This document shows, in pieces, positions 39,136-50,191 of a stretch of 64,000 nucleotides of DNA. The stretch is from an uncultured Draconibacterium sp. Lineage in GTDB: Bacteria; Bacteroidota; Bacteroidia; Bacteroidales; Prolixibacteraceae. Each line of letters begins with the position of its first letter. The first letter of the stretch is position 1. The notes beneath the pieces were generated by a model. That model saw nothing but the letters and a program-made list of their open reading frames with translations, searched no databases and was not told where the DNA came from. The position numbers were made by a program, and so were the translations under genes. The stretch spans positions 1-64,000 of the forward strand of contig NZ_CAJXTC010000017.1 of the NCBI RefSeq assembly GCF_913060805.1, written 5' to 3'.

Positions 39136-40419
39136 TTAATCTTCGCTGTAAACAGGAATGTGACTTACCTGGGTAATATTTTGCAAATCGGAATAATCGT
39201 ACTGATAAAAACCATCGTCGCCAATCATAAACAGGTAGCCGTTTAGCGGAATTACATCGTAGGTGTTGATGTTGGCAAAGTGCGAGATCATATGATCGTC
39301 AATGGCCGTTTTATCTTCGGCATTGTAAACTTTAAGCCCGGCATCGCCGTCGCAAACAAAAAGCACATCACCATCAATTCCCAGTCCGTAAGGACCTTCC
39401 AGCGGATACGACGCAATAAGATCGTTACCCACATAATCGTCGGCCAGCTGAAGAACATCGAGGCGGTTAACCGTGCTTCCGCAGGTAGTTCCGCCACGCA
39501 AAGTTACGTAGGCATAACCATCGGCAATTACCACCGGGTCGCAACTTGTAACGTGCCAAAAATCGCTGACATAAACCGGGTATGTTGGCACTTCGATGTT
39601 AAAAACGCGCATACCCGATTGTGTTCCCAAAAACATATGATCGTCGTAAATAAACATGGTTTCCACATTCCATCCTACGTTTTGTTCTCCGATTTCTGAC
39701 GGACTTTCCGGAGCCTTTACATCGAAAACATGAAGGTTGGCCTCATCAACGGCGTACAGATAATCGTCGTACAAACCAAAGCGGGCCATCGATCCGCCAA
39801 CACCAAAAGTGCTGGTTTGTCCACTTCCGTTACTCAACCCGGGAGCGGCATCCATCATGGCATCTTCGGCGTAACCCCAACGGTAAATCGGGTAATAGTG
39901 GTACTCCATTGTCTGGCGCACCTTTTTAATTTCCCATCCGGTAACCACACCTTTGTCTTCTTCCACCTCGGCAAAACGGTAATCTTCATCGGCTGGAGGC
40001 AAAGTATAAGGCAACACATTCTTAACACGGTTCACTTCTTCGGGATTATTAATATCGCTGATATCGATAGCAACCAAATCAATGTAACTGTCGGCATAAA
40101 GAATATCGTCTTTTATTGAAATATCAACATTTCCGGGGATTTCGATAAAGCCAACATTTTGCGGATCGGCAGGATTTTGGTTGTCGATAATGTGCACGCC
40201 TTCAAATTGCTCAACAATAAAAAGGTAGCCATCTTTAAAATAGATTTTTCCCGGATTTACAAGGTCGCGCGAGTCGGCAGATTGTACTCCGGCACGCAAA
40301 TCTTCATAACTCAGGTAAACCGGCGAATTGGCTGTAAACTCTTCGGTGTATTCGTCCATACACGCTGAAAAAGCCAGCGCTATAAACAGTAGCAGAAATA
40401 TATTTTTGATTGTCTTCAT
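39136..40419 (-). CDS. LVIVD-repeat beta-propeller lipoprotein
   Basis: 427 residues with a lipoprotein signal ending LFIALAFSAC. Repeats of about 40 residues recur: YLFIVEQFEGVHIIDNQNPA, ILYADSYIDLVAIDISDINN, YLYAVDEANLHVFDVKAPES, and VLFVCDGDAGLKVYNAEDK, the LVIVD pattern that folds as a beta-propeller. No catalytic motif is seen; it probably mediates binding at the outer membrane. It is the last gene of the operon that begins with the TonB-dependent receptor and lies 12 bases after the barrel gene. A terminator follows. Confidence 0.85.
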   Translation of the reverse strand: MKTIKNIFLLLFIALAFSACMDEYTEEFTANSPVYLSYEDLRAGVQSADSRDLVNPGKIYFKDGYLFIVEQFEGVHIIDNQNPADPQNVGFIEIPGNVDISIKDDILYADSYIDLVAIDISDINNPEEVNRVKNVLPYTLPPADEDYRFAEVEEDKGVVTGWEIKKVRQTMEYHYYPIYRWGYAEDAMMDAAPGLSNGSGQTSTFGVGGSMARFGLYDDYLYAVDEANLHVFDVKAPESPSEIGEQNVGWNVETMFIYDDHMFLGTQSGMRVFNIEVPTYPVYVSDFWHVTSCDPVVIADGYAYVTLRGGTTCGSTVNRLDVLQLADDYVGNDLIASYPLEGPYGLGIDGDVLFVCDGDAGLKVYNAEDKTAIDDHMISHFANINTYDVIPLNGYLFMIGDDGFYQYDYSDLQNITQVSHIPVYSED

Positions 40420-40431
40420 TTTCTGTGGTTT

Positions 40432-41202
40432 TTAGTTGAAAATAATACCGATTTTAACGGTTACGCGATTGTAGTCGATATCGAGCGAATAGTCGTTATT
40501 ACCGTCGTAGCTGAGGCGGTGAAACTGGTAACCAACGGCAAAGTTCATCCCAAAACTATTGGAAAACATTTGCTGATATCCAACACCGGGATTTACAAGC
40601 ACTCCTCCTTTGCAGTCGAAACCGTTTTGGCCCATATCACTCGGCCACGGCGCAAAACTGCTCCACATGGGGTACACATCGTAATAAATTTCGTTCGAGT
40701 CTTCGATAGGAACCTGGTAACCGGCTTTAAAAAATACATAGGGGCTGGATAGCTGTTTCTTAAAACGGTATTCGAAATTGGCGTACACGGGCATGTACGA
40801 TTCTTTCAGAAACTCAACACCAAATCCCAAACCCACCGACAAATTCGGATTTACCAGGTAGTTTGCCGAGCCGGTAAGAGAAAATGGCGCCGACTGACTG
40901 TTATCCGAATTTCCGGCTAAAACACCCATTTCGGTTCTGAAAAACCATTTTACGTCCGTTACGGCTTCTTCGTCGAACATTGTTCTTACTTCACGCTTTG
41001 AGGCAATGTGATCCACTTCATCGGCATCGAAAATCCATACATTTCCGGCCGATTCTATTTTCAATTGTTTTCCGTCGTTTGTATACGTGTATTTTCCTTT
41101 AATAATGGAACCGTTTTTCAGGTAGACATGACCTTTTTCGGATTGCGCAAAAACGGAAAGCGACAACACCGAAATGCACAGCAGCACAAGTAGTTTCTTC
41201 AT
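40432..41202 (-). CDS. Predicted outer-membrane beta-barrel protein
   Basis: 256 residues with a signal peptide ending LSLSVFAQ. Residues about 23-65 form a small soluble segment (VYLKNGSIIKGKYTYTNDGK, then ADEVDHI), resembling short 'KNG-x-x-x-KG' sensor-like domains common before barrels in Bacteroidota. The remaining ~170 residues alternate as strands (WFFRTEMGVLAGNSDNS, then NLSVGLGFGVEFL) and end in YNRVTVKIGIIFN, with a near-terminal Phe. This is the likely eight-strand barrel type. It is the fifth gene of the operon. Function unknown. Confidence 0.78.
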   Translation of the reverse strand: MKKLLVLLCISVLSLSVFAQSEKGHVYLKNGSIIKGKYTYTNDGKQLKIESAGNVWIFDADEVDHIASKREVRTMFDEEAVTDVKWFFRTEMGVLAGNSDNSQSAPFSLTGSANYLVNPNLSVGLGFGVEFLKESYMPVYANFEYRFKKQLSSPYVFFKAGYQVPIEDSNEIYYDVYPMWSSFAPWPSDMGQNGFDCKGGVLVNPGVGYQQMFSNSFGMNFAVGYQFHRLSYDGNNDYSLDIDYNRVTVKIGIIFN

Positions 41203-41265
41203 AATAGTTTTTTGTTTTTATGAAGATGCAAGAAGCTGCGCTTGGGTTGCGTTAAACAAAAATTT

Positions 41266-41991
41266 TTATTCTGTAAGATTATTTTCGGTTAATAGCCGAA
41301 GTGCTTTAACCATTGATTCTTCGTCGCTTACGTGCAGATTATTTTTGCGAAGAAGTTTTCGTATTTCTTTTTTATTTTCAGGAAAGCGCGTAAGTAAAGC
41401 ACGTTTTTTAAGGCGTGTTTTTGTTAAACCATCCCGATCAGTATACAAATAATAGTCTTTGTGCAACTGGTAATCTACAGCGCGCGTAATCCCGTTTCTA
41501 TCGCGATAAGGGCTAACCGATTGTTGGTAGATATACCAATTAACCATTAAACTAACAGGTCCTTTGTACAACTCTTCCAAATACATATTGGTTTGCTGAT
41601 TGTTGTTTTTTGTTAGGCGAACAAACTTGCGCGTTTGGTTACCATCCTGAAACGTAAAACTCTCCACCAGCTCTTTTTCAACCAGGAATAAAAAACGTCC
41701 GTTATCGTTGTACGAAATCAGCTCATCGTCGAATGCCTGGTAACGCAATCGCAGGTTTTCGAACACATTGCCGTTTACAAATTTTATCGAGCCCGCCACC
41801 CAGTCGTCGGGATACAAAAAGTAATAATTGGCTTCGGCGCTAAGCGTAAGAACTTCGCCAAGCATTTTACCATCGAGATTATTCGATTCGCTATTCAGAT
41901 TATATGTATCGATCCCCGTGTCCTGAGCCTGCACAACAAACGAAAACAGCATTCCCAAAACCACTCCTGTATATTTTATTAAGCTGCTCAT
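41266..41991 (-). CDS. Secreted protein of unknown function in TBDR operon
   Basis: 241 residues with a signal peptide ending FSFVVQAQ. The middle (PDDWVAGSIKFVNGNVFENL, then LRYQAFDDELISY) has a predicted all-beta pattern seen in many Bacteroidota periplasmic proteins of unassigned function. The C-terminus is basic and helical (LKKRALLTRFPENKKEIRKL). Its start overlaps the stop of the upstream MG-like gene by 4 bases (ATGA), so it is translationally coupled. I do not recognise a named family. Confidence 0.7.
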   Translation of the reverse strand: MSSLIKYTGVVLGMLFSFVVQAQDTGIDTYNLNSESNNLDGKMLGEVLTLSAEANYYFLYPDDWVAGSIKFVNGNVFENLRLRYQAFDDELISYNDNGRFLFLVEKELVESFTFQDGNQTRKFVRLTKNNNQQTNMYLEELYKGPVSLMVNWYIYQQSVSPYRDRNGITRAVDYQLHKDYYLYTDRDGLTKTRLKKRALLTRFPENKKEIRKLLRKNNLHVSDEESMVKALRLLTENNLTE

Positions 41992-43637
41992 TGTACCGAT
42001 ATTATTTTTGACGTTCTATACAGTTCTCCCGATTTCGTTATCGCCTCAACTTTAATTTCCAAATCTCCTTTTACATCTGAAAGCTGAAAACTAAATGGCC
42101 AGTTTCCATCGGTATCAACCACCTCGTTTAAAAACTGCCTACGGGTATCGGGTTGTGCCCTACCCTCTCCTTTTGGGGCATAATTGGCCTGTCTCGGAAA
42201 TTCGATACACGGCACTTTCATCTGAAATATATTTGGTTGTTGAGCCAACCAGCCATTCGATTTATCTTTTAAAGACACGATGAGCACGCCCTTAAAACGC
42301 AGGTCGCCGAAAATACGTTCGCTTTTTACCAAATCGATCGAGGCAATTTCCGTTGATTTCAAATTCTGAAAGAATGAATTTTTAAACACCGGAATTCCAT
42401 TGATCAGTCGCAACGGTTCATCTTCGAAAAACTGATCCTGTCCGTAATTTAACATCCTGAAAGTAACCTCATCGTTTCGGTCGCGGTATTGAAAGCCGAT
42501 AAGTAACTCGCGCGAAATCTCTTTAAAGTTGGGTAAATCGATAAACAGATCGGGAATAACATGATTATCGGGCCAGCCGTAAAATGGCATTCCGTAGGGA
42601 TTTGGCATCTCAAAAGCATCGTTACTACTGATGGAAACTCCCCGGAAAAGCTTATTAAAGAAGGTACCTTTTAGGCTGTTTTCAATAGATTCAGCCTGTT
42701 TTGGATTTATAAAAGTGGTGTCGAATTTTAATTGTTGCACGCCCGACATAAAATTCGGGATCAATTCTACATCGTACAATTTATCGCCAACTGCAAGAGG
42801 TTGGATAATGAGGTCAGCATTTCCCATTGCATCATCCAAAAAGAAGTAGAATAGCCCTGCTGAATCGGGATAATAATAATCAAGATAAGTTTCGTTTCCG
42901 GTAACCGATAACAGCACCAATTCGTTGCTTGCATTACCTGTTTCGTTGTCGCTAAGGCGGCCACTGATCAGTACTCCGTCTTTTTCCGAAAATTCAGGAA
43001 TACCTTCATTCAGGTCTTTCATCTCGAAGTTCAGGAATCCGGTATTTTCGTGCGAAAAAGGTTCAATTATCCTAGCACTTGCTACCATGTAGGCAAACTC
43101 GTTGCTTCCGGCATTAATGGTACCTTTTACTTCATCGCGGCGGCCATAATTTTGAGCTTCAAGATTTATTGTGATCTGGCTAGCCGAGTTTTCCGTTTCA
43201 ATAACTGCAGTTTTGTTTTCCACTACCGGCAAGCGGTCAATTGCTTCCTCAAAACGATTATAAACATACACCGACTTGCCAATACATTTCAGCACTCCGT
43301 TGTTACGTTGCGCATTAAAAAAGGCATGCACAAAATACAACCCGGTTTGTAACGAATCGGGCACAGCAATAAAACCTTCGGCATTTGTTTCGTTGCATTT
43401 TACGGCACGCGATGCAATTAAATTTCCGGATTGCGACTCGAGCTGCAAACGAACAATATTTCCGTATTTCTGCATCTCTTGCGGTACATACATTTTTATC
43501 CATAAAGTATCTCCCGAAATGCAAAAGTCGCGATCGGTAAACACTACAAGTTCCCGGTTGGAGGTGGTTTGCGCCATGGATTTTAACCCGGCCCACACAC
43601 ACACAACAAGAAGTAATATTTTTAAAGCTCTGCTCAT
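41988..43637 (-). CDS. Secreted MG2-like protein with degenerate TonB-plug-like segment
   Basis: 549 residues, signal peptide ending VWAGLKSMAQ. The first ~130 residues (RELVVFTDRDFCISGDTLWI, then IVRLQLESQSGNLIASRAV, GLYFVHAFFN) resemble an alpha-2-macroglobulin MG2-type domain. Near residues 390-450, DEPLRLINGIPVFKNSFFQN and STEIASIDLVKSERIFGDLR, then FKGVLIVSLKD, follow the pattern of a TonB-receptor plug (PL.V.DG.P...I.SI.V.K....G..GV..I). No barrel follows. It sits 10 bases after the DUF4249 gene. Probably a periplasmic or surface accessory to the receptor; this is inference. Confidence 0.78.
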   Translation of the reverse strand: MSRALKILLLVVCVWAGLKSMAQTTSNRELVVFTDRDFCISGDTLWIKMYVPQEMQKYGNIVRLQLESQSGNLIASRAVKCNETNAEGFIAVPDSLQTGLYFVHAFFNAQRNNGVLKCIGKSVYVYNRFEEAIDRLPVVENKTAVIETENSASQITINLEAQNYGRRDEVKGTINAGSNEFAYMVASARIIEPFSHENTGFLNFEMKDLNEGIPEFSEKDGVLISGRLSDNETGNASNELVLLSVTGNETYLDYYYPDSAGLFYFFLDDAMGNADLIIQPLAVGDKLYDVELIPNFMSGVQQLKFDTTFINPKQAESIENSLKGTFFNKLFRGVSISSNDAFEMPNPYGMPFYGWPDNHVIPDLFIDLPNFKEISRELLIGFQYRDRNDEVTFRMLNYGQDQFFEDEPLRLINGIPVFKNSFFQNLKSTEIASIDLVKSERIFGDLRFKGVLIVSLKDKSNGWLAQQPNIFQMKVPCIEFPRQANYAPKGEGRAQPDTRRQFLNEVVDTDGNWPFSFQLSDVKGDLEIKVEAITKSGELYRTSKIISVQ

Positions 43638-43647
43638 TCGTTCATTT

Positions 43648-44703
43648 TTATGGATACTGCCAGAATTCCGGTACCATATTCTTCAGCTCGCCCGATGGCG
43701 GGATGTCGTAAAACTCCTCGATCGGCCGAAAAATAAAACCACTCTCCTTTCCAACATATCTTACATAATAACGTGTCTCGTTAGAGGAGGAAATTTCGAA
43801 GTTACCTAAAATCACCTGGTCAGAATTAGTGGTGCATTCCATGTTACTGCGCGCCTGCACGTACAATGGATCGAATATTTTTCCTTCTGCATCAAGCTGT
43901 TTATTCAAATCATCGTAATAACCGTGTCCACTTTCAGTTAATCCATGCTGATAAAGCATAACAATCCAACCTTCGAAATGGTGCCCTATTGAATCTCTTC
44001 TGGTATTTAGAATAAAAAACAGCGGATGTTTCTTAATTTCTTTTGAAGCGGAGTACTCCGGAGGAGAAGCTATATTAAATAATCCTTCCTGTGGATATAC
44101 ATGCTTCCAACCAAAATAATAATCGGTCGGAGCCATTGGGCTCGTTACAACTGAATATGAATATTGCAAAACATAATGGGTTGTAAACCTAAAATAGGGC
44201 ATCTCTTCATTCGTTGAAATATCGGCATATAACCTTACGCCTTCTCTTCTTCGAACAGCATCAACATCGTTCTCGCCGCCTACAAGTTCAACTAAAGTTT
44301 CTTCAACTCCATAAATAGTATCCAACGACGGTTTTTGCGGGACTTTTTCAAAGTCCGACTCGTAAGTATCTCCGTTGTATTCAATTTTTAACTTATACTG
44401 CTTATTGCGATCAATGTGCATATTTAGTTCATATTGTCCCTGAGCATAATGCGGCAGCTGATGCTCCTGCCCGTCGTTATCAATTATGCTAACATTAGCA
44501 TTTGTAACAGCGGGCCCCGTACTGGCATTATCGTAATAACCTACCGATTCGTACAGATGAATATAGTTGATATCGTTATCGGCAGATATTCTTGCATCGG
44601 CAACCAAAACATTGTCCACCTTATCAATATCGGGGCGGTAAATGTCTTCACACCCTGTTAACAGGATGAGCAACAAAAAACCATATGTGAATATATGCTT
44701 CAT
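43648..44703 (-). CDS. DUF4249 lipoprotein
   Basis: 351 residues with lipoprotein signal MKHIFTYGFLLLILLTGC. The N-terminal part (VDNVLVADARISADNDINYI, then SVGYYDNASTGPAVTNANVS) and the rest match the DUF4249 family, beta-rich outer-membrane lipoproteins of Bacteroidota. Members are frequently encoded beside a TonB-dependent receptor, and here the start codon overlaps the receptor stop by one base. A surface partner that helps capture or lid the receptor, like SusD for SusC, is inference. The sequence has no SusD-type TPR pattern. Confidence 0.88.
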   Translation of the reverse strand: MKHIFTYGFLLLILLTGCEDIYRPDIDKVDNVLVADARISADNDINYIHLYESVGYYDNASTGPAVTNANVSIIDNDGQEHQLPHYAQGQYELNMHIDRNKQYKLKIEYNGDTYESDFEKVPQKPSLDTIYGVEETLVELVGGENDVDAVRRREGVRLYADISTNEEMPYFRFTTHYVLQYSYSVVTSPMAPTDYYFGWKHVYPQEGLFNIASPPEYSASKEIKKHPLFFILNTRRDSIGHHFEGWIVMLYQHGLTESGHGYYDDLNKQLDAEGKIFDPLYVQARSNMECTTNSDQVILGNFEISSSNETRYYVRYVGKESGFIFRPIEEFYDIPPSGELKNMVPEFWQYP

Positions 44704-47420
44704 TAAAACCTAAAATTATATGTTAATGAAGGTACCGGAATACCGATTACCGACAGTTTAAATAAAGAATAGCGGGTCCAGTGATTGCTCTCGCCCGGAA
44801 CTGTTTTTTTGTAATATACCGAATACGGGTTGTTTCGTCCGTACAAGTTGTAAACCGATAGGGTCCAGCTACCTTTCCACATGCGCTTTTTCCGAAGGTT
44901 TTCATCGAAAGTTATCGAAACATCTAAACGATGATACGATGGCATCCGGTACTTATTTCGGTCTGAATAATAGACCAGATCTTCTCCGGCAAATTCGTAT
45001 TTAATTTCGGGTAAGGTTGTAGGTCGCCCCGAAGCAAGCACAAAATTACTTGAGAAACGCCAACGGCGGCTGATATGATAAGTGGCTGTAAGCGAAAAAT
45101 CGTGAGGTTTATCGTAAATCGACGGGTAATAATCGCCGGTCCACAGGTTTTCCTCATCAAACTCGCTGGTATTTTTTCGCATTGTACGTGAATACACGTA
45201 GCTGGCATAACCGGTTAAACGTCCAAAGTTTTTCCGGGCGCTCAACTCAATTCCGTATGAATAACCTTTAGTCGGGACAAGTGCCGTTTCAACATGATCG
45301 TTCATAATCAGCCGGGCACCATTTTTATATTCTATTAAATTCTGAAGATTTTTATAATACACCTCTGCCGAAAGATCGACATCAGAGAACAACGAGTTGT
45401 TTTCAAGCCCCACTGCCACCTGATCGGAAATGAGTGGTTTTAAATGGTAATCGGCAGCTTTCCAGGTCTCGGCCGGCGAGATTACCGCATTATTACTTAG
45501 CTGAAAAATATTTTGTCGTGTTCGCTGGTAACTGAATTTCAGCGAAGTGTTCATGTCAAGATCGTAGTTCAACGCCAGCCTTGGCTCAATTCCACTATAA
45601 GTTGCCGAAGCCTCGTTTTTGCCAAACTGCAGCGAGTCGACAACCGTTCCCGGCGTCTTGGGCTGGTCCTCGTCGTACAGATAAACAACCGGCGTACCGA
45701 TATTGCTGTAATGGTTGTAACGCAAACCGGCCACAATCGAAAAGTTTGGCAAGATTTGGAATTCGTCGCTTATATACACCGACCAATCCAGCGTTTTCTC
45801 CTTCGCCAATTTTCGCCCGATAATTACGGTAGTATCATGTCGCGGAATAATTTCACCGGGACTGATTTCGTTGTAAACTGCTTTAAAACCGGCTTCTGCG
45901 TTATGCCTTTCGTTCGGATGCCATTTAAAATTATACCCCGTCGAACTGTACTGCAACTGGTTATCGAGATAATAAGCTTCGTAAGGTTTATCGTCGGCCA
46001 AATCGGTAAGTCGGTAATCATAACGACTATAGGCCGCATCCAACTCGCCGTAAAATTTCTCACCAAAACGGTTGTTGAGTTTTAGGTTACCCAGCAAGTT
46101 ACCATACTCCGTAATCGATTGTGAACTAGTACTAAACTCATCGAAACTGGTATAAGCCATTACACTTAATTTGTTGTGCTGATTGAACTTATACGTCAAT
46201 TTCCCCGAAACATCGTAAAAATGAGTAACGCCTTCGTTTAAGTCGAGATTCGGAATTTCTTTTAATAACCAGTCGGTATACGAACTACGTCCACCAATGG
46301 CAGCAGTAAGTTTTTTATTTTTTGTTAAGGGCCCGTCAAGTGCAAGGCGCGAATTTATAATTCCAATTCCACCATAAACTCGCATGGTTTCGTCGTTTCC
46401 TTCTTTAAAATCGACCTCCATTACCGAAGCCACCCGCTCACCATAACGTGCCGGCATTCCACCTTTAAAAAGTCGCACATTCTCCACAACATCGGGATTA
46501 ATGAGCGACATAAAACCAAAAAGGTGCGATGAATTAAATACCGGGCTACCATTTACCAGAATAAGGTTTTGGTCAGTGTTTCCACCACGCACATTAAAAC
46601 CCGACGACAACTCGCTAACGGTTTGTACACCCGCCAAAATTGTTAGTCCTTTTAACACATCAACCTCACCCATTAACGCAGGCAATTGTTGAATTTCTTT
46701 TCCGCTCATTTGCACCATACTCATCTGCGCACGCGGCACATCGGCGTCCGATCCCAAAATGGTAACCTCATCAATGTTGTGCGATTCTTCAAACAGACGA
46801 AAATCTGCAGCACCATCTTCAATCATTCGGATGTCAATTGTAGATCCTTCAAAACCTATATAGGTGATCGTTAATTTTAAATCGCCGGTAGGCAGATCCA
46901 TTTCGAAATTTCCGCTCGCATCGGATGTGGTACCCTTTTGAAGTTTATTTGAATAAACCACGGCACCAACCAGCGGTGATCCGTCTTTTCCATCGAGCAC
47001 CCGCCCCTTTAGTTTTGCTGTTTTGCATCGTCCTAAATTCATCGGGTCGCCAACCACCAATGTCTGACTGTAATCATCAAACTTCGATCGCGTATCTGCC
47101 GACCTTCTGAAAACCACAATTCCGTCATTCTGAAAGAAATCATAGGTCAGTTCCGAATCATAAAATACATTATTTAGCGCCTGTAATAAAGGAGTGTCTT
47201 CAAATTGATTGGAGATAGTATAATTTTCAATCCAGGAGTCTTTGTAATAAACCCGTAAGTTATAATTGGTCTCCAAGTCATTCAAAAATTGCTCAAGCAG
47301 CTGATTCTGGTATGAACCGCTTATTTTCACCTCTTCAATTTGCTGGGCATACAAAACAGTATTACTCCCCAACAAAAGAGATAAAAACAGGAGCATATAA
47401 TTAATAAAAGATTTTTTCAA
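44703..47420 (-). CDS. TonB-dependent receptor with STN-like and carboxypeptidase-regulatory N-terminal domains
   Basis: 905 residues, signal peptide ending LGSNTVLYAQQ. Residues about 30-105 resemble an STN domain (NQLLEQFLNDLETNYNLRVY). Residues about 135-215 are a CarboxypepD_reg-like domain (LKGRVLDGKDGSPLVGAVVY). The plug follows (GFNVRGGNTDQNLILVNGSP, then NPDVVENVRLFKGGMPARYG), then a ~600-residue 22-strand-type barrel ending SVIGIPVPSLTYNFRF. It imports a substrate through the outer membrane powered by TonB. Substrate unknown. First gene of the operon; its one-base stop/start overlap with DUF4249 shows tight coupling. STN domains often couple to FecI/FecR signalling, but no sigma/FecR pair is adjacent. 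Confidence 0.93.
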   Translation of the reverse strand: MKKSFINYMLLFLSLLLGSNTVLYAQQIEEVKISGSYQNQLLEQFLNDLETNYNLRVYYKDSWIENYTISNQFEDTPLLQALNNVFYDSELTYDFFQNDGIVVFRRSADTRSKFDDYSQTLVVGDPMNLGRCKTAKLKGRVLDGKDGSPLVGAVVYSNKLQKGTTSDASGNFEMDLPTGDLKLTITYIGFEGSTIDIRMIEDGAADFRLFEESHNIDEVTILGSDADVPRAQMSMVQMSGKEIQQLPALMGEVDVLKGLTILAGVQTVSELSSGFNVRGGNTDQNLILVNGSPVFNSSHLFGFMSLINPDVVENVRLFKGGMPARYGERVASVMEVDFKEGNDETMRVYGGIGIINSRLALDGPLTKNKKLTAAIGGRSSYTDWLLKEIPNLDLNEGVTHFYDVSGKLTYKFNQHNKLSVMAYTSFDEFSTSSQSITEYGNLLGNLKLNNRFGEKFYGELDAAYSRYDYRLTDLADDKPYEAYYLDNQLQYSSTGYNFKWHPNERHNAEAGFKAVYNEISPGEIIPRHDTTVIIGRKLAKEKTLDWSVYISDEFQILPNFSIVAGLRYNHYSNIGTPVVYLYDEDQPKTPGTVVDSLQFGKNEASATYSGIEPRLALNYDLDMNTSLKFSYQRTRQNIFQLSNNAVISPAETWKAADYHLKPLISDQVAVGLENNSLFSDVDLSAEVYYKNLQNLIEYKNGARLIMNDHVETALVPTKGYSYGIELSARKNFGRLTGYASYVYSRTMRKNTSEFDEENLWTGDYYPSIYDKPHDFSLTATYHISRRWRFSSNFVLASGRPTTLPEIKYEFAGEDLVYYSDRNKYRMPSYHRLDVSITFDENLRKKRMWKGSWTLSVYNLYGRNNPYSVYYKKTVPGESNHWTRYSLFKLSVIGIPVPSLTYNFRF

Positions 47421-47644: not shown

Positions 47645-50191
47645 ATGAAGCGATCTATTACAACTCTTTCAATTTTATTTTTTGTAATTTTTTCACAAGC
47701 ACAGGAAAAACTGTCGTACTTTTTACCTGACGACGTTAGTTATAATACCGAAATCCCAACACCTGAAGAGTTTTTCGGGCAAGAAGTTGGAGAATGGAAC
47801 CTTACACACGATCAGGTTTTGTATTACATGAAAGAAATTGCGCGAAGTTCCAATCGCGCTATTATGTATGAGTATGCCCGATCATGGGAGAACAGGCCGC
47901 TTGTTCATTTGGTATTTACTTCTGAACAAAACCACAGTAAGCTAGATGAATTAAAACGACTTCACAATGATTATTCCGATCCGGATAAAGAAATTTCAAT
48001 GGAAGGAGTGCCAGTTGTGGTAAATCTCGGTTATGGAGTTCACGGAAACGAATCGAGTGCCACAAACTCTTCAGTGCTCTCAGCTTATTATCTTGCTGCA
48101 GCAGAAGGTGCCAAAATCGACGAGCTGCTCGATAAAACAATTGTTATTGTTGATCCGTGTTTAAATCCGGATGGTTTTAACCGGCACAGCACATGGGCAA
48201 ACATGCATCAAAGCTATGCGGCTAACGGCGATAACAATTCGCGCCAGTTTAGCGAAGTTTGGCCCGGAGGAAGAACCAACCATTACTGGTTCGATATAAA
48301 CCGCGATTATTTACTGTTGGTACATCCTGAAAGTAAAGGGCGGGTGGAAAAGTTTCACGAGTGGAAACCGAATATTGTTACCGATCATCACGAAATGGGT
48401 CCTAACTCTACTTTCTTTTTTCAGCCGGGAGTTCCCAGTCGGAACAATCCTTTAACACCGGAAAGAAACTACGAGCTTACACATGAAATAGCACAATATC
48501 ATGCTAAATTTCTAGATGCCATCGGTTCTACCTATTTTTCTGAAGAACAGTATGACGACTACTATTATGGAAAAGGCTCATCGTACCCGGATGTTAATGC
48601 CAGCATTGGTATTTTGTTCGAACAAGCCCGGTTTCAAGGCCGCGTTCGCCAAACAGACAATGGATTGAGAAAACTGGCTTTTGGTATCAGAAACCAATTC
48701 ACCACAACTTTGTCTACTTTGGAAGCAGCTGTATCTATGCACGACAAACTGCTTCAGATGCAAAAAGAATTTTATCAGTCGGCCTTTGAAGTGGCCGATA
48801 ACTACCCGACAAAAGCTTATGTTTTTGGCAGCGAATACGACAAGGTTAAAACCCAGATGTTTATCGATTTCCTGAATCAACACCAAATTGAAGTGTATAA
48901 AAACACCAGTGATTTAACGGCTGACGAAATTACATTTAAGGCCGGCACCAGTTATATTGTGCCAACAAAACAAAAACAGGTAAGGCTTATTGAATCGATA
49001 TTTGAAGACATTCACAGTTTCACCGACACAACCTTTTATGATGTATCAACATGGACATTTACACATGCTTATGATATTCCGGTTGCCGGTCTGCAATCGC
49101 TAAAAAGTGTTTCAGCCAGTGAAGAGCCGGTTGAAGCCCAAAAACTTACCGGAAAAGTTATTGGAGCGAAAAGCGGAGTGGGATACATTTTCAGATGGAA
49201 TGAATACAATGTTCCGGAAGTACTTTACAAATTACAAACGGCAGGTCTAATTACCAAAGTAGCTACCGAAAAATTCTCGTTTGAACTTGATGGTTCCAAT
49301 GAAGATTTCAGTTATGGAACGATATTTATTCCTGCCAGCGGCCAGCGCTTATCACCGGATGCACTTTACCGCTTTATTCAGCAAATTGCCACGTCAACAG
49401 GAATTGATTTTTATGCACTTTCAACCGGGCTTTCACCCACTGGAATTGACATGGGTAGTGGTAGTTTTGCTCACCTTACAAAACCCAACATGCTGATGTT
49501 TGTAGGCGGCAGCGCCAGCTCCAGTGAGTCCGGCGAAATTTGGCACCTGTTCGATCAACGCTATCATATTCCAATCACATTAGCAGATATGGACAAAAGA
49601 AGCAGTATTAATCTGGCACCATACAACAACATTATATTGACAGGATCGCTAAGAGAATGGAACTCAAACGACATAAACAAACTGAAAACCTGGGTAAAAA
49701 ACGGTGGCAACCTGATTGTTTGTAAAGATGCAGCCGTTTGGGCCGCTAAAAATGAATTTGGCAACATCACTTTCAAAAAACCGGTAGCATCCGACACAAC
49801 ACGCTACCTCACCTATGCCGAGCGAAGTAAAGAACGTAGCCTGAACTACATCAGCGGTGCAATTTTCGAATCAGAAATAGACATCACACACCCACTTTGT
49901 TACGGCTATTCTGATGATAAACTGGCCATTTTCAAAAACGACATTACAGTTGCCAATTCGCTGGAAAAGAAATATGCTGAACCGGTAAAATTCAGCGAAC
50001 AACCGTACCTAAGCGGATGGGTTTCGGACGACAACATAAACCGCCTCAAAGGAGCCCCGATAGTTTCAGTTCAAAATATTGGAAGAGGTAAACTGATCAG
50101 TTATCTCGATGATATGAGTTTTAGAGGAACATGGCTGGGCACCAATAAACTATTCTCCAATTCAGTATTTTTCGGAGGCATCATCCGCTAA
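47645..50191 (+). CDS. Secreted M14-family zinc carboxypeptidase
   Basis: 848 residues, signal peptide ending FVIFSQAQ. The M14 domain (about 60-350) shows zinc ligands in NLGYGVHGNESSATNSSVLS (H-x-x-E), the conserved IVDPCLNPDGFNRHSTWAN, DINRDYLLLVHPE, a third zinc His in IVTDHHEMGPNST, and likely catalytic Glu in ASIGILFEQARFQG. The C-terminal ~300 residues contain a class I glutamine-amidotransferase-like or DUF4350-like segment (NNIILTGSLREWNSNDINKL, then WVKNGGNLIVCKDAAVWAA). This build is common in large Bacteroidota M14 enzymes. It removes C-terminal residues from peptides, probably in the periplasm. Divergent from the TonB operon. Confidence 0.92.
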   Translation: MKRSITTLSILFFVIFSQAQEKLSYFLPDDVSYNTEIPTPEEFFGQEVGEWNLTHDQVLYYMKEIARSSNRAIMYEYARSWENRPLVHLVFTSEQNHSKLDELKRLHNDYSDPDKEISMEGVPVVVNLGYGVHGNESSATNSSVLSAYYLAAAEGAKIDELLDKTIVIVDPCLNPDGFNRHSTWANMHQSYAANGDNNSRQFSEVWPGGRTNHYWFDINRDYLLLVHPESKGRVEKFHEWKPNIVTDHHEMGPNSTFFFQPGVPSRNNPLTPERNYELTHEIAQYHAKFLDAIGSTYFSEEQYDDYYYGKGSSYPDVNASIGILFEQARFQGRVRQTDNGLRKLAFGIRNQFTTTLSTLEAAVSMHDKLLQMQKEFYQSAFEVADNYPTKAYVFGSEYDKVKTQMFIDFLNQHQIEVYKNTSDLTADEITFKAGTSYIVPTKQKQVRLIESIFEDIHSFTDTTFYDVSTWTFTHAYDIPVAGLQSLKSVSASEEPVEAQKLTGKVIGAKSGVGYIFRWNEYNVPEVLYKLQTAGLITKVATEKFSFELDGSNEDFSYGTIFIPASGQRLSPDALYRFIQQIATSTGIDFYALSTGLSPTGIDMGSGSFAHLTKPNMLMFVGGSASSSESGEIWHLFDQRYHIPITLADMDKRSSINLAPYNNIILTGSLREWNSNDINKLKTWVKNGGNLIVCKDAAVWAAKNEFGNITFKKPVASDTTRYLTYAERSKERSLNYISGAIFESEIDITHPLCYGYSDDKLAIFKNDITVANSLEKKYAEPVKFSEQPYLSGWVSDDNINRLKGAPIVSVQNIGRGKLISYLDDMSFRGTWLGTNKLFSNSVFFGGIIR

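Follow-up and report, generated by a model that had tools for sequence, protein, structure and literature searches.

The window analyzed here, a stretch of 64,000 nucleotides from an uncultured Draconibacterium sp., holds six minus-strand genes, named P6 to P1 in 5' to 3' order on that strand and divided below into module A (P6, P5, P4, and P3; 47420-41266) and module B (P2 and P1; 41202-39136). P6 (47420-44703) encodes a TonB-dependent receptor of 905 aa with a TTG start, in which Pfam finds a STN-like/FecR_C domain, CarbopepD_reg, Plug, and a TonB barrel. P5 (44703-43648) encodes a DUF4249 lipoprotein (351 aa; PF14054, E = 1.7e-26). The next gene, P4 (43637-41988), specifies an exported protein of 549 aa in which profile comparison and AlphaFold2 (AF2) modeling indicate an MG2 domain, an NTE-like segment, a plug-like part without a barrel, and a C-terminal Ig-like part. 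P3 (41991-41266) encodes a secreted protein of 241 aa, described below by its AF2 model, from a family without a Pfam entry. The last two genes encode an outer-membrane barrel with a small N-terminal domain (P2, 41202-40432; 256 aa; PF13505, OMP_b-brl) and an LVIVD β-propeller lipoprotein (P1, 40419-39136; 427 aa; PF08309).

A preliminary description of this DNA had reported overlaps and short gaps between the genes, one terminator, and export signals on the products. The open reading frame coordinates bear out the first point, with junctions from P6 to P1 of -1, +10, -4, +63, and +12 bases, and a single strong terminator hairpin lies 3' of P1 (39092-39068, minus strand; an 11-bp stem followed by a T-run). 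P5 and P1 carry lipoprotein signals in which acidic residues follow the Cys, while P4, P3, and P2 have ordinary signal peptides, and a lipobox is generally absent from the members of these three families. A canonical Bacteroidota promoter was sought in the region upstream of P6 and was not found there. Divergent from the operon lies a gene for an M14 zinc carboxypeptidase (window 47645-50191, plus strand), which persists in locus L233, where module A is missing. Draconibacterium orientale (L051) is the closest named genome; its receptor is 92% identical to P6, all six genes are present in unchanged order, and the lytic transglycosylase and uvrA genes that come after them are also shared. Conservation of gene order and content in other genomes, D. 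orientale included, rules out the chance grouping that had been considered for this operon. Judged from sequence, however, the six genes are two conserved modules and not one machine.

The four-gene cassette and its detached plug protein

The STN-like signaling domain of P6 covers approximately residues 27-110 (47091..47342, minus strand), where the FecR_C match in Pfam is accompanied by an hhalign probability of 96 against the FecR C-terminal domain. In receptors of P4-containing cassettes this domain precedes the NTE and is homologous to the STN-like C-terminal domain of FecR. The receptor has a plug of its own at residues 254-329 (46434..46661, minus strand; PF07715, E = 1.2e-9), and it scores 74.5 bits against the SusC/RagA model TIGR04056, far under the cut-off of 368. 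P5 is probably surface-exposed; acidic residues follow the lipobox Cys in 105 of the 118 P5 relatives that have a lipobox. The preliminary description held that no function was established for DUF4249 proteins, which overlooked an existing proposal: in the part of PMC11003636 that cites a preprint by Price et al. (2023), DUF4249 is put forward as the lid of TonB-dependent transporters of the BT2172-BT2173 class. In SusCD, lid and barrel work as a pedal bin (PMC7782687).

Profile-profile alignment (hhalign) places P4 residues 219-469 (42231..42983, minus strand) on receptor residues 132-351, that is, on the NTE (CarbopepD_reg) and the plug (probability 97, E = 5e-11), with all controls (receptor barrel, P5, P1, P2, and P3) at a probability below 1. 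A search of PDB sequences with the P4 profile returned, at weak E-values, the plugs of SusC, Cir, and FepA and the MG2 domain of complement C3; the Pfam match of P4 to MG2 is likewise weak. In its AF2 model (pLDDT 82), P4 is mostly β, contains MG-type domains, and is similar to arrays of macroglobulin domains. Only about 80 residues, modeled as Ig-like strands, follow the plug-like part. A 22-strand barrel is absent from P4, given its length of 549 aa and the lack of a match to the receptor barrel profile, and P4 matched no domain model for a thioester domain, only those for MG2-like and related domains. Taken together, the signal peptide, the missing barrel, and the scarcity of lipobox-like matches (4 of 111 relatives) make P4 most likely a soluble, periplasmic protein. 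At E ≤ 1e-10, the P4 family is found in 77 of 396 genomes of the phylum, a count that includes longer MG2-plug proteins, some of them solo. This distribution rules out P4 as an accessory of the Bacteroidota BAM complex, whose core subunits (BamA/BamD/BamG/BamH) are, unlike the P4 family, universally present (PMC12611786). Three of the long solo MG2-plug proteins (L298, L299, and L300; 835-944 aa) are P4 relatives without an adjoining receptor gene.

Among 58 members of the P3 family, none has a Pfam match above noise. The AF2 model of P3 is confident (pLDDT 87) and β-rich with C-terminal helices, and Foldseek found no fold match for it in the PDB at E < 0.05. Profile comparison rejected P3 as a FecR_C- or STN-like domain, and homology between P3 and P2 was also rejected, since only their signal peptides matched. 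Solo P3-like secreted proteins are also encoded apart from receptors, and the window genome has three of them at other sites (L281, 5634-6329; L282, 6813-7514; L283, 5794-6459), with no P6-P5-P4 cassette around them. By similarity, these solo relatives are a wider, undescribed secreted family. Because P3-like and P4-like proteins both occur away from receptors, neither family is strictly receptor-bound.

A search for P4 over 149 genomes of the same order yielded 20 loci that were examined with their flanks; almost every full-length P4 sat behind receptor and DUF4249 genes, with P3 first or last in the set. A receptor-alignment scan of the genome collection then returned 80 loci, which came from Bacteroidales, Cytophagales, Sphingobacteriales, Chitinophagales, Saprospiraceae, and Flavobacteriales. 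Among the gene orders seen, P3-P6-P5-P4 and P6-P5-P4-P3 were the most frequent, with DUF4249 sometimes present in two or three copies. Across 79 complete cassettes, pairwise distances of the four proteins correlated at 0.69 to 0.85 (P6-P4, r = 0.85; P6-P5, 0.84; P6-P3, 0.77), compared to permutation maxima of about 0.14, and the position of P3 was always common to nearest neighbors on receptor distances. The whole four-gene unit is duplicated in tandem in five genomes. These comparisons show module A to be a conserved, co-varying four-gene unit.

Partners of the STN domain

To our knowledge, the only understood role of the STN domain in TonB receptors is that of a lever on anti-sigma factors of the FecR type. 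STN binds these factors (PMC11637429, PMC7782687). We compared 164 receptor-DUF4249 pairs with enough flank. Both STN and P4 were present in 113 of these, the window included, a number that is not an unbiased frequency because the pairs were partly selected by P4 and receptor queries. None of the 113 had an adjacent FecR gene, the feature that was scored; a FecR may be encoded elsewhere. A further 44 pairs lacked STN, P4, and FecR alike, and four had STN and FecR without P4. One pair had STN with neither P4 nor an adjacent FecR, and this is the second receptor of a tandem (L259/L178) whose first receptor has FecR. In the remaining two, P4 occurred without a detected STN; one receptor gene is broken, its STN lying in the next open reading frame, and the other has a weak STN. 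A sixth STN-bearing receptor without P4 (L179), missed by the flank cut, also has FecR. Sixty of the loci were added by hand-picking, nearly all from an order-wide DUF4249 search in which loci with known P4 were skipped, and they inform on the P4-minus class, not on how frequent P4 is.

The simple rule that STN implies P4 is rejected by the FecR-linked STN receptors. Mutual exclusion of STN plus P4 and FecR, by comparison, has zero exceptions in these data (Fisher p = 6.5e-7 among STN-bearing pairs, uncorrected for relatedness). Only six STN-bearing loci without P4 were seen. DUF4249 receptors thus divide naturally into plain, FecR-linked, and P4-linked groups; the other two receptor-DUF4249 pairs of the window genome (L134 and L135) are without STN, P4, and P3. 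We found no description of the P4/P3 cassette and its exclusivity with FecR in the open-access literature; the lid preprint may already mention P4-like neighbors. We infer that P4 and P3 replace FecI/FecR as the periplasmic partners of STN. Many Bacteroidota receptors keep STN, yet in the place of FecI/FecR they come with a detached plug protein plus a new secreted one, which implies another use of STN.

We therefore favor, at a probability of roughly 0.45, the reading that module A is a lidded uptake receptor that would report through STN to periplasmic P4 and P3, and not to FecR, with module B as a separate pair. The ligand would be taken up by P6 and its lid P5 in pedal-bin fashion. Ligand binding or transport would then be signaled through STN to P4 and P3, in replacement of a FecR anti-sigma factor. 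These two proteins could in turn act on the receptor or its cargo, through gating, plug exchange, TonB access, or ligand receipt, and not on transcription. Profile comparison found no FecR_C-like domain in P3 or P4, so these proteins could bind STN only through a new interface.

An alternative hypothesis, rather unlikely in our estimate, is that the cassette encodes an ordinary DUF4249-lidded TonB transporter, in which P4 and P3 bind, chaperone, or process the imported ligand in the periplasm and STN is a partnerless relic. The operon context, the exported and soluble nature of P4 and P3, and the solo relatives of both proteins would suit such ligand handling. A relic, however, would not be expected to be kept in essentially all P4 cassettes and to be absent from the 44 pairs that have neither P4 nor FecR. 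Within the favored reading of STN signaling to P4 and P3, a more specific version seems improbable: P4 may be a trans-acting spare plug, whose NTE-plug segment docks on, exchanges with, or competes with the receptor's own plug under STN control. If true, this TonB receptor would have two plugs and be controlled post-translationally, in place of FecIR transcriptional signaling.

The barrel and propeller pair

Homologues of P1 occur away from module A in about one third of the order's genomes, most full-length ones at 40 to 63% identity, and they usually adjoin a P2 homologue, which may be encoded on either strand. P2-P1 is therefore a separate, putative surface pair that is found on its own elsewhere. 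An ECF sigma gene is present in 8 of 26 module B loci (L157, L160, L161, L164, L167, L169, L234, and L237), and two of the three neighboring anti-sigma-like proteins tested, those encoded by the next gene in L160 and L167, have an outer-membrane barrel domain. In L170-L172 and L175, with L173, L174, and L176 related, P1 homologues take the form of two adjacent half-propeller genes, most of which encode a signal peptide of their own. Many P1 homologues appear as two frames that share one break point, which raised the possibility of a programmed frameshift or an intein. Both were rejected for L170-L172 and L175, where the halves are separate open reading frames, each with a signal-peptide-like start, and a short secreted gene comes next, which points to gene fission or fusion. 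Either the long P1 is a fusion or the short form is a fission, as far as can be read from these genes.

Within Prolixibacteraceae the two modules repeatedly meet. Searches with both P1 and P4, compared by coordinates, found them near each other in about 23 genomes, which represent five genera of the family. We read 14 joined loci as DNA (the window, L051, L218-L224, and L228-L232), of which L222 ends at a contig edge that leaves only P4-P3-P2-P1 in view. The home site of module B consists of the M14 peptidase, P2-P1, the transglycosylase, and uvrA; it is seen without module A in L233, and its right-hand part is also present in L227 and L234. Most joined loci have module A between M14 and P2, but L218 has it between P1 and the transglycosylase. 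In L225, a 102-aa remnant of P3 (6156-6464) adjoins P2-P1 and P6, P5, and P4 are gone, so that module A appears to have been lost. At least six changes are required to explain the joined state on the receptor tree, and gains among them are indistinguishable from losses.

That the modules adjoin repeatedly, and on either side, points to a functional or regulatory link between them within the family, and they are probably adjacent because both act on the same surface process. A stronger possibility, that the six proteins are physically assembled into a single outer-membrane machine in this family, could draw on the 14 joined loci, which include both orders and five genera. In further genomes from this family and genus, however, the modules lie apart or module B occurs without module A (L227, L233, and L225), and in the loci read outside the family P1 and P2 never accompany the cassette, which makes such a machine quite improbable. 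The one-machine proposal of the preliminary description survives in its receptor, surface lipoprotein, and plug-like accessory, which are a conserved and little-described set, and fails for P2 and P1, an independent module that many genomes carry without the receptor. The linkage of all six families divides likewise: P4 and P3 are tied to the receptor-DUF4249 pair phylum-wide, P2 and P1, in the loci read, only within Prolixibacteraceae, so that a six-protein machine could apply to this family at most.

Comparison with known systems

By analogy with Oar-dependent PopC secretion, P4 (with P3) might be exported through, or assembled on, the receptor in an outward system with its MG2 domains outside the cell, and secretion in Myxococcus does require a TonB-dependent transporter (PMC6434023), but for all its MG2/complement-like domains P4 showed no identified secretion signal beyond the signal peptide, a plug homologue would be odd cargo, and lid-type receptors are importers, so we consider this very unlikely. 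P4 shares its MG2-like N-terminal domain with the MG-domain proteins of the alpha-2-macroglobulin/complement group; it is much shorter, adds the NTE-plug segment, and yielded no thioester domain. Some module B loci elsewhere adjoin an ECF sigma gene and a barrel-bearing anti-sigma-like protein, as in Dma/Das dual-membrane anti-sigma systems (PMC13088901), whereas module B of the window has no such pair nearby.

Module A resembles the DUF4249-lidded TonB transporters of the BT2172-BT2173 class in having a receptor and an adjacent DUF4249 lipoprotein in one operon, as these are introduced in PMC11003636, but most such pairs that we read are without STN, P4, and P3. With SusCD, it has in common an NTE-bearing TonB barrel and a surface lipoprotein, the pair that in SusCD uses the pedal-bin mechanism (PMC7782687). 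In module A, DUF4249 stands where SusCD has a SusD-family lipoprotein, and P4 and P3 are without Sus counterparts. Moreover, the NTE is said to precede STN in ECF-controlled SusCs (PMC7782687), whereas STN precedes the NTE in the module A receptor. Finally, module A shares with FecIRA-type cell-surface signaling a periplasmic STN on the receptor, and sister DUF4249 receptors sit behind FecI/FecR; module A itself has no adjacent FecR or ECF sigma gene, and P4 and P3 stand there instead.
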